In this document: piece by piece, positions 12,526 to 62,839 of the stretch | Position numbering within the stretch: position 1 is the first letter of the stretch | How the letters are laid out: each line of letters begins with the position of its first letter | Notes under the pieces: model-generated | What the model was told of the DNA's origin: nothing | The model's database searches: none | The model's input: only the letters and a program-made list of their open reading frames with translations | Program-made: the position numbers and the translations under genes | Assembly (NCBI RefSeq): GCF_000510265.1 | Contig: NZ_CP006745.1 | Location: 1,199,654-1,263,653 of the forward strand | From: Candidatus Endolissoclinum faulkneri L5 | GTDB lineage: Bacteria; Pseudomonadota; Alphaproteobacteria; Thalassobaculales; Thalassobaculaceae | Direction: 5' to 3' | DNA length: 64,000 nt

Positions 12526-15329
<2,804 letters not shown>

Positions 15330-15963
15330 ATGAAGCTTTTTGCAAAACTGTAACCGTGAATGAAAAAAAGTAACAATACTTATCTAGTAAACCTAGATAA
15401 GTTAAATCTTAGTTCACCTAAAAAAAAGATTGTTACGCTTTCCTAGTCGTAGTATAGCTAAAGCCGTAGCTAACACGAATGGGATATATACAACACAATG
15501 AAATCGACCTGCCATCTATGATTATGATGAGCTTTGCAGTTACTGTTACTAATTTGATAACGCCTCAGCGTGAATATGTAATGAGATCAGTAACTTTGCC
15601 TTCTCTGACTTAATATATTTCCCAAAAGCCACCCAAAAAAAATTAGCTGCTCGTCAATTTAGTCTATGGAGTCAGTGGCGTGAATGAGCAGAAAAACGAT
15701 TTTCTTTGAATCTATCAATTACATTTAAGTATAATGCCTATACGCCAACTGAAAACTAACTTGCAAGTCCTCAGGAATGCAGTGAAAGAAATAGAAGACT
15801 AGCATCCAGTGCCGCTGCATACAGCAACATCAATTTACAGGTTCGGTTAATACTAGCACTGGCCTTGCTTGATGCTGAGCCAAAAGCTGATGAGTTAATC
15901 AAAATATCACAGATTGACGAAATAATTCAGGCAGGTAGATGGGGGAGAACCGTTATATCTTAA
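15330..15963 (+). pseudogene. ATP12-family F1-ATPase assembly chaperone, decayed
   Basis: ATP12 chaperones the F1 alpha subunit during ATP synthase assembly in mitochondria and alphaproteobacteria. About 210 codons of such a protein can be read here only by changing frame. The start M-K-L-F leads to C-K-T-V-T-V-N-E-K-K, then N-T-Y-L-V-N-L-D, then P-S-R-S-I-A-K-A-V-A from 15441, then S-F-A-V-T-V-T-N-L-I-T-P-Q-R from 15530, then F-S-D-L-I-Y-F with A-A-R-Q-F-S-L-W from 15601, and the C-terminal L-I-L-A-L-A-L-L-D-A-E with Q-I-D-E-I-I-Q-A-G-R-W-G ending at TAA 15963. At least five frame changes, several at A or T runs, and two in-frame stops (TGA 15685, TAA 15757) break it. The order and spacing of motifs match the family from memory. 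Confidence 0.75.
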
Positions 15964-17689
15964 ATCGTTGTTTTTATATGCTAAAAAATAGAAGAAGCTG
16001 AACAATTTAACATATTATTAAATAAATAAACTCACTTACAGAGTAAAATTCTTATTGCAGACCTACAGTAATTTTACATTTAATTTTTTAATATAGTTAG
16101 ATACTCTATCGCGGATTTTAATTTTAAACTATATTAGTTTGGCTAACTTACACTAAACTACATACTGTTGTGCATCTAGTTATATAATAGATCGCAATCA
16201 ACTTGCTAACTCTGTATAAAACTAAACTAGCAATACATAATTGCCTCTATCTAAATAAGAACAAAATAGAATATGATTTTATTGGAGCTAATTTATAACT
16301 TATTCGAGTTGCCAAAACAAGTATTCATCATTCGCATTTAATCGAAAAGTAGGGAAAATCATATTCTATAATTTTTATAAACAATTTACTAATTACGGCA
16401 AGAAAAATTGTGAACATCGTAATAATAAAAAATTATCTAAAAATTTATGTTACGACAAAGAAAAGATCTACTTAACAGTTAAGTGAAGCATGAGGCCACA
16501 AGCAAAGTCAGGTGTTAAAAATCTATTAAGACAAGATAAGGCTTCTTGTTAATTGCTATCACATTAGTGATATTATAACCGGCAATATATCAACTAATAT
16601 TTTAGTTAATCCTATAAGAAATCATATTTAATAACAACTTAGTGCTGTAATCTATAGCTAAATCGCAAACTCGCTGAACTAAAAATTAGTAGTTTTCTGA
16701 TAAAAATCAGAATAATGTTAGGTTAATTACAAAAAAACACACCTAGAATTTTATTAAAAACGCTATAAAATAATTTGAATTTACTAAGTACAAACAAAGC
16801 AAATGATTAAAGCGGTAACGACAAGTATCAATCGATCGGGATATTGCTAAGTAATGCTTCATTTTTAATAAATCACTTGATATCCATCAATATATCCCAA
16901 AGATAAAAATTTGATCTAACACATCAGTCATTTATTCCATCAAGTCATACGATAAAAATAATTTTCATCTTTGTGTAAATTGTTTAAGAGTTGAAATTGA
17001 ATAATTAGTAGATCAAACCGATATTCCCTATATCGTTGGAGTGTTTATTAAATTTCTTAATTGATTTTTACGAATGGTTCTACTTAATCTAGTACATTGA
17101 GTAGAACTATCATTTTTGATTAATTACTACTTAAGTAAGTAACTATATCGCTTATCTAAGGACGAGCTTAGTTAACAAAACTATTCGATCTTTTAACATT
17201 GTTTCTCTATAAATTCAAAAGAAATACTGCTATTTATAACGACAAGTTTTTACATATTATAATGAGTTCATATACATACACAAATCATCAACTTAAAAGT
17301 ATAAAAGGTCGTTCATGCAAATACTAATCCCAGCAAATTATTATATCTCAAATTGAATCATCTAAGTAATAAAAAAAATGCAAATCCTTCAAATATAACT
17401 TTTAGCAAGTTTATATCTTTATTGTAATTAAAAATTGCTAAATATGCTACTTAGCGTGGCATCATTTATTTAAAAGCATAAAATATGATAGTCGAGTTAT
17501 CCTATAAATTATACAATAAAGCCTCTACAGTTGCCTACAGCATACACGGGATCTATCTTCTCATTTTTTATTCTGACATCAACAATAAAAAAATGCTTAA
17601 AAACAGCTAGCATTGCTAAGCTTAGCAGCAACCACAATAATAAGATTACTACGATCATGTATTTTGGTATAAACTTAACCGAGATAACG
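15964..17689. other. Non-coding spacer between the ATP12 pseudogene and folB
   Basis: This 1.7 kb AT-rich stretch holds no gene I can support. It includes a 15-base inverted repeat around a 74-base core (16266-16369). The folB frame is open back to 17531, but the family domain begins much later. Confidence 0.5.
16266..16369. repeat. 15-bp inverted repeat enclosing 74 bases
   Basis: Arms 16266-16280 and 16355-16369 are perfect reverse complements around a 74-base core that is slightly richer in G and C than its surroundings. It could be a structured RNA or a relic of a small mobile element. No promoter or terminator is clear. Confidence 0.5.
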
Positions 17690-20597: not shown

Positions 20598-20658
20598 TAC
20601 TAAGAATGCCGATAACTAATATTTGATAGTCAAATATTAGTTATCGGCATTCTTAGTA
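20598..20658. repeat. Perfect 29-bp inverted repeat with 3-base loop
   Basis: Arms 20598-20626 and 20630-20658 match without mismatch around a T-A-G loop, as in the purN hairpin. It lies about 620 bases downstream of serB (- strand) and 390 bases upstream of the reductase gene. No T tract follows on either strand. Confidence 0.95.
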
Positions 20659-37894: not shown

Positions 37895-38310
37895 TCACCT
37901 TTCGGTGAGGCAATCGCAGATTGATTTTACTATTACGGTAATGCGCTTGCCCAGATCTGCGTTTTTAATTGAATAATAAGCAAGCACTAATTTTAGTGTC
38001 TCACGATGAAGTATCTGGTCAATAGTATCTTTTTCTTGTCTATCATGCAGCAAGCCATTCTTCATAAGACCAGGTGAGTGTCCATAGTATTCATCAGAAA
38101 TTTCATCAAAAAAGCTAACAGACATATCAAGTATCTTGTGCAATATCCCATAAACGAGAAGAGTGGATTAGATTGCTGGCGCTTTCATACTTTTAGATCT
38201 GTTGAAAAGTTATGTTTAATTCCTCGCCTAATTCGTTCTTAGCTCATGCCCAACAGAGTACGACATAATCTGACACCACGGCCAGCATGAATGTCAATGA
38301 AAAAATTATT
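37895..38310 (-). pseudogene. XRE-family transcriptional regulator, decayed
   Basis: Alphaproteobacteria carry a conserved regulator of about 140 residues with an N-terminal XRE helix-turn-helix and a C-terminal tail. Here the tail survives as an 82-codon frame (37895-38143) with F-F-D-E-I-S-D-E-Y and R-E-T-L-K-L-V-L-A-Y-Y-S-I. Upstream the helix-turn-helix is still readable but broken: I-D-I-H-A-G-R-G-V-R-L-C-R-T-L-L-G-M-S, a stop (38239-38241), a frame change, E-L-G-E-E-L-N-I-T-F-Q-Q-I, another stop (38193-38195), K-Y-E-S-A-S-N and S-R-L-W-D-I-A, then a further frame change into the tail. The original start is uncertain (about 38310). A shortened protein from the tail could not bind DNA. 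Confidence 0.75.
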
Positions 38311-38529: not shown

Positions 38530-38579
38530 AAAGCATAGATTTATCTACTTTATTAATAAAGTAGATAAATCTATGCTTT
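38530..38579. repeat. Perfect 50-bp palindrome with no loop
   Basis: The whole of 38530-38579 is its own reverse complement without a mismatch. It lies 220 bases upstream of the XRE pseudogene (- strand) in a gene-free region. No T tract follows. Confidence 0.95.
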
Positions 38580-55804: not shown

Positions 55805-55864
55805 CTAGTAATACATAATATTAATCTAAATATTAACAGTTAGATTAATATTATGTATTACTAG
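55805..55864. repeat. 25-bp perfect inverted repeat upstream of sodB
   Basis: Arms 55805-55829 and 55840-55864 match exactly around ten bases. It ends 122 bases upstream of the sodB start, close enough to affect its promoter, though it may simply be another of the palindromes common in this window. Confidence 0.9.
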
Positions 55865-59628: not shown

Positions 59629-59676
59629 GTATTGTTACTATTTACTCCAAAATTTTGGAGTAAATAGTAACAATAC
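59629..59676 (-). terminator. Perfect 48-bp palindrome over the trkH stop codon
   Basis: Bases 59629-59652 are the exact reverse complement of 59653-59676, with no loop. The palindrome covers the last 12 codons of trkH and its stop (59638-59640). The coding half encodes the usual TrkH ending L-F-T-P-x-F-W, so the non-coding half looks like a copy of it. Its place suggests a terminator. Confidence 0.7.

Positions 59677-61089: not shown

Positions 61090-62839
<1,750 letters not shown>

Follow-up and report, generated by a model that had tools for sequence, protein, structure and literature searches.

Candidatus Endolissoclinum faulkneri is an obligate intracellular symbiont of tunicates. Strain L5 very probably carries a pseudogene of the ATP12 family, on which constraint probably lapsed at about the time when strains L2 and L5 separated, leaving a lineage that would assemble its F1-ATPase without a dedicated chaperone. 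The window analysed here is a stretch of 64,000 nucleotides (bases 1199654-1263653 of the L5 genome, accession CP006745). Its assignment to L5 rests on the primer ef33_1327_Rout, for which Table 7 of PMC3851785 gives the L5 coordinate 1,262,269; the primer site is found at window position 62616, which corresponds to precisely this coordinate. The main body of the relic lies at positions 15330-15948 of this window, on the forward strand; along it the reading frame changes nine times and is interrupted by two in-frame stops. It is followed on the same strand by a weak C-terminal continuation at 15949-16023, with two more frame changes, which is reached with lenient gap costs only. In genome coordinates, the relic corresponds to 1214983-1215676. 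It is located in a non-coding gap between mreB and folB (about 13570-17560), the length and neighbours of which are kept in strain L2.

For the frameshift-aware search we used purpose-written dynamic programming together with a profile of 23 ATP12 sequences (L016 and its duplicate L026 were left out). On the forward strand of the mreB-folB gap the alignment scores 167.2 bits and covers profile positions 3-211 (209 of 239), at approximately 15310-15945 of the window, compared with 15.8 bits on the opposite strand. All null maxima are near 20 bits or lower: 20.1 bits for 60 dinucleotide shuffles of the gap, 19.6 bits for the remainder of the window, 20.8 bits for the reversed window and 18.2 bits for five column-shuffled ATP12 profiles. 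The match is thus significant, and the decayed ATP12 gene that the original prediction had placed at 15330-15963 by reading across frames is confirmed in its position. Its proposed end is slightly short: with lenient costs the alignment reaches 16023, that is, residue 231 of 234, so that homology to the ATP12 family is found along the full length. The Pfam model PF07542 alone gives 19.6 bits on the relic in the genome search and 14.8 bits when a single frame is read with X at the stops. Both values are below the curated cut-off of 27 because the relic is broken across frames, and the open frame at the PF07542 match is only 61 aa long. Where at least five frame changes had been proposed, nine are counted in the main body. 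The two in-frame stops, a TGA at 15685-15687 and a TAG at 15800-15802 (both on the forward strand), lie outside homopolymer runs, as had been stated. These lesions are scattered along the whole gene and leave no open reading frame able to make an ATP12 protein.

Across the complete L5 genome (1,518,636 bp), PF07542 gives no second match besides the sub-threshold relic. A full-length ATP12 profile of 17 rows (17 of the 23 profile rows) finds the relic alone in L5 (E=4e-17, the match being interrupted by stops) and has no match in L2; the predicted loss of ATP12 therefore holds. The congeners with large genomes (4.7-5.6 Mb, G001-G004) have an intact ATP12 gene in four of four cases. Their PF07542 sequences are similar to the relic, the read-through of which aligns with G001 ATP12 over 201 of 234 residues at 50% identity, but they are encoded in one open frame, which the relic lacks. 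In the congeners, the gene is followed by what appears from its sequence to be pccB, and is preceded by what are presumably an AsmA-like gene, a HAD phosphatase gene and, probably, rluC. Eleven queries representing these neighbours, several of them with overlapping or uncertain frames, gave no score clearly above the null in the gap of either strain; since they stayed near the null, no old neighbour is recognizable beside the relic. A six-frame Pfam search of the mreB-folB gap with X at the stops returned nothing at E < 0.1 beyond ATP12. Applied to four large gaps of the window, the same search found only the ATP12 relic; the method is weak, as it missed a published HTH relic at 37901-38243.

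The window also contains long palindromes that are mostly non-coding (14854-14915, 20598-20658, 38530-38579, 55805-55864 and 59629-59676). The longest, with perfect 31-base arms and no loop, precedes the ATP12 relic by about 415 bases. Palindromes with perfect arms of at least 18 bases number seven in the 64-kb window and zero in 28.5 kb of free-living congeners (L022 and L024), while the L2 stretch (L033) contains one, elsewhere in the gap. They may have originated from template-switch mutation in the absence of recA, or may be an assembly artefact.

The genome that we treat as strain L2 (G005, 1,481,191 bp, same genus; a name that we infer) possesses its own relic at the syntenic site, between the same two flanking genes, with a score of 38 bits compared with a null maximum of 20.8 bits. 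The two relics show DNA similarity throughout their length. That of L2 is more decayed, with large deletions and with frame changes and stops of its own. The block from mreB to miaA (about 7.5-24 kb of the window, compared with L033) is inverted between L5 and L2, with the orientation of the relic relative to mreB unchanged; PMC3851785 describes two inversions, of which this is probably one.

Table 2 of PMC3851785 gives nine pseudogene loci, of which only 1237554-1237896 (37901-38243 here) falls within the window. The ATP12 relic is not one of them, and no mention of ATP12 was seen in the available portions of PMC3851785 and PMC5698493. Compared with the published relics of this table (dnaA, ftsK, amidase, M48 peptidase, HTH and others), it is alike in its many frameshifts and stops, its syntenic counterpart, its intermediate GC content and its lesion density, and it differs in being unlisted, in being broken in both strains and in concerning ATP-synthase assembly. 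It has 5.0 lesions per 100 codons; for the published relics with an intact partner, we obtain 8.7 for ftsK, 7.0 for amidase, 4.7 for M48, 5.5 for dnaA and 2.3 for HTH. PMC3851785 recognizes recent pseudogenes by several features, among them a BLASTX match (E < 1e-3) to a non-hypothetical bacterial gene in NR; of the others, several pieces within the length of the gene, a syntenic place and a GC content between those of coding and other intergenic DNA are found here. The relic has 37.0% GC and the remainder of the gap 26.8%, and the coding and non-coding DNA of L5 is reported to have 41.2% and 25.9%, respectively (PMC3851785).

The lesions of the two strains can be compared to date the loss. 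Matched by eye, eight of the 11 L5 lesions are absent from L2, two are in a stretch that L2 has lost and one is possibly common, namely that at 15723, for which L2 has a +1 change three codons off. The differences between the two relics are spread over codon positions 1, 2 and 3 at 0.28, 0.28 and 0.32 (p=0.73), whereas in all five intact neighbours the differences are in excess at the third position (0.04, 0.01 and 0.24 for mreB). Because the lesions are mostly strain-specific and the divergence is even over the codon positions, the simplest reading is probably that constraint on ATP12 was lost near the L2/L5 split, which has been placed at 6-31 million years ago (PMC3851785). This dating is soft. 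The amidase relic is likewise even (0.30, 0.30 and 0.31) though it is open in L2, so evenness alone is no proof that both ATP12 copies have been free of constraint since the split; moreover, scores of 167 and 38 bits are not what equal time and rate would predict.

Two other histories have to be weighed against a loss near the split. ATP12 could have died well before it, as PMC3851785 infers for most lost genes, with most degraded genes decaying before the divergence. The even divergence of the codon positions and the lack of an intact copy in either strain would both fit such an early death, but we regard it as rather unlikely, since at most one of the 11 L5 lesions can be common to L2 and the L5 read-through is still 50% identical to the protein of a free-living congener. 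Alternatively, the gene could have been lost twice, wholly independently, after the split. The predominance of strain-specific lesions, the unequal decay (167 compared with 38 bits) and a lesion density resembling that of the post-split relics all agree with this scenario. However, the third-position excess that is expected from constraint persisting after the split is absent, and one +1 change is possibly common to both strains, so that two separate losses also seem somewhat improbable to us.

The original prediction had called for a search for intact atp operons elsewhere in the genome, and the F1 and Fo genes are indeed open in both L5 and L2 (atpH, A, G, D and C, and atpB, E, F' and F); atpA and atpB were identified by family-model matches and the other names come from sequence reading and gene order. 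AtpC (epsilon) has 95 and 96 aa in L5 and L2, respectively (L037 7670-7957 and L038 7540-7830), compared with about 135 in G001 and G003, and its C-terminal part is missing; atpC is absent from the list of shortened genes in Table 4 of PMC3851785. The zeta inhibitor (PF07345) was found in neither the L5 nor the L2 genome and is present in four of four large congeners. Loss of this inhibitor has been described in Rickettsiales, Holosporaceae and Acetobacteraceae (PMC9317440). The two cases are alike in that host-bound alphaproteobacteria drop an accessory F1 factor while the core enzyme stays. They differ in that ATP12 is an assembly chaperone and that its dead gene is still visible in E. faulkneri.

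Of 193 genomes sampled evenly across the Alphaproteobacteria, 150 exceed the cut-off for ATP12, and in 42 no match is seen at E 0.01; among the matchless genomes that are listed (20 of the 42), 19 are at most 1.9 Mb in size. A set of 23 ATP12-less genomes, 15 from this survey and eight from another genome search, likewise yielded no match when searched with the full-length profile at E 0.1, although a very divergent ATP12 could escape both profiles. G015 and G029, which lack a match and are 84% and 68% complete, respectively, were kept out of this set as their absence of ATP12 is uncertain. The atpA gene is above the cut-off in 20 of the 23 genomes (13 of the 15 and seven of the eight), and loss of ATP12 with retention of F1 alpha is therefore recurrent. 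The E. faulkneri relic is a true pseudogene and part of a recurrent pattern in shrunken alphaproteobacterial genomes. The original prediction had taken the loss as informative on F1 assembly, a claim that stands in a weaker form: since L2 and other small alphaproteobacterial genomes are also without ATP12, the loss says less about this one cell. A joint loss of ATP12 and zeta as a rule was considered and found no support, as zeta is present in five of the 23 ATP12-less genomes and in four of 17 small ATP12-bearing ones. A second dying ATP12 was also considered in G173 (1.6 Mb), which has a divergent ATP12 with stops in the Pfam-matched stretch (C21:15550-15843, L108). The case is not plain, as the C-terminal 150 residues are open; partial decay of this gene is possible.

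The alpha subunit of mitochondria contains a nine-residue peptide in its Atp12-binding part that is missing from chloroplast alpha (PMC7607909, citing Pickova et al. 2005). In the bacterial AtpA sequences, the segment from GDR (P-loop region) to GQK comprises 38-45 residues in main copies compared with 33 in three second copies, and the resulting insert of roughly eight residues may correspond to this Atp12-linked peptide. The long form is present in all 13 of the sampled ATP12-bearing genomes and in both E. faulkneri strains. It is equally present in 20 of 20 ATP12-less genomes with atpA recovered (18 at 41-45 residues and two at 38; the AtpA of G015 is outside this count). The idea that the insert is lost together with ATP12 can thus be rejected and, because all 20 genomes have kept it, the insert outlives ATP12 and needs none by itself.

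Atp12 of yeast, human and plants binds the alpha subunit (PMC7607909), and by analogy with that work ATP12 would be expected to aid F1 assembly in bacteria. For the bacterium Acetobacterium woodii, in vitro assembly of F1 proceeds with no chaperone present (PMC8904574). In the L5/L2 lineage, F1 alpha would join beta without a dedicated chaperone: a cell bound to its host would have little demand for ATP synthase, and general chaperones or plain self-assembly would be enough to meet it. ATP12 would then have ceased to be under selection at about the time of the L2/L5 separation, each lineage afterwards collecting its own frameshifts, stops and deletions.

It is very improbable that a fragment of ATP12 is still made and useful, for example through recoding or an internal start. 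The similarity that has been retained is the sole point in its favour; lesions occur along the whole length, the comparison between strains carries no codon-position signature of constraint and the frame at the Pfam match is short. That the symbiont receives ATPAF2, the mitochondrial ATP12 of its host, appears just as remote, and intracellular life is the one argument for it. Such a replacement would be needless, as ATP12-less alphaproteobacteria with atpA are common, and we know of no import route. Finally, the chance that a good ATP12 gene only seems broken through sequencing or assembly errors in A/T runs, a caution already attached to the original prediction, is negligible, for although two L5 frame changes (15364 and 15419) do sit in A runs, about 620 bases hold nine frame changes as well as two stops that do not depend on runs, the published assembly has 96 variant sites in 1.5 Mb (PMC3851785) and the independently sequenced L2, which has no intact copy and carries its own relic with its own lesions, refutes this explanation.

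The loss of ATP12, probably near the L2/L5 split, adds an unlisted gene loss to the record of a well-studied defensive symbiont, through a frameshift-aware profile that finds a relic missing from the published list. We tentatively suggest that ATP12 in alphaproteobacteria may help F1 assembly under some conditions without being required for it, even where AtpA carries a mitochondria-like insert, and that E. faulkneri, in which zeta and the C-terminal part of epsilon are missing too, might serve as a natural knock-out series for the accessory parts of F1. With the long form of AtpA in 20 of 20 ATP12-less genomes, we may ask, as a testable question, whether the AtpA insert needs ATP12 at all.
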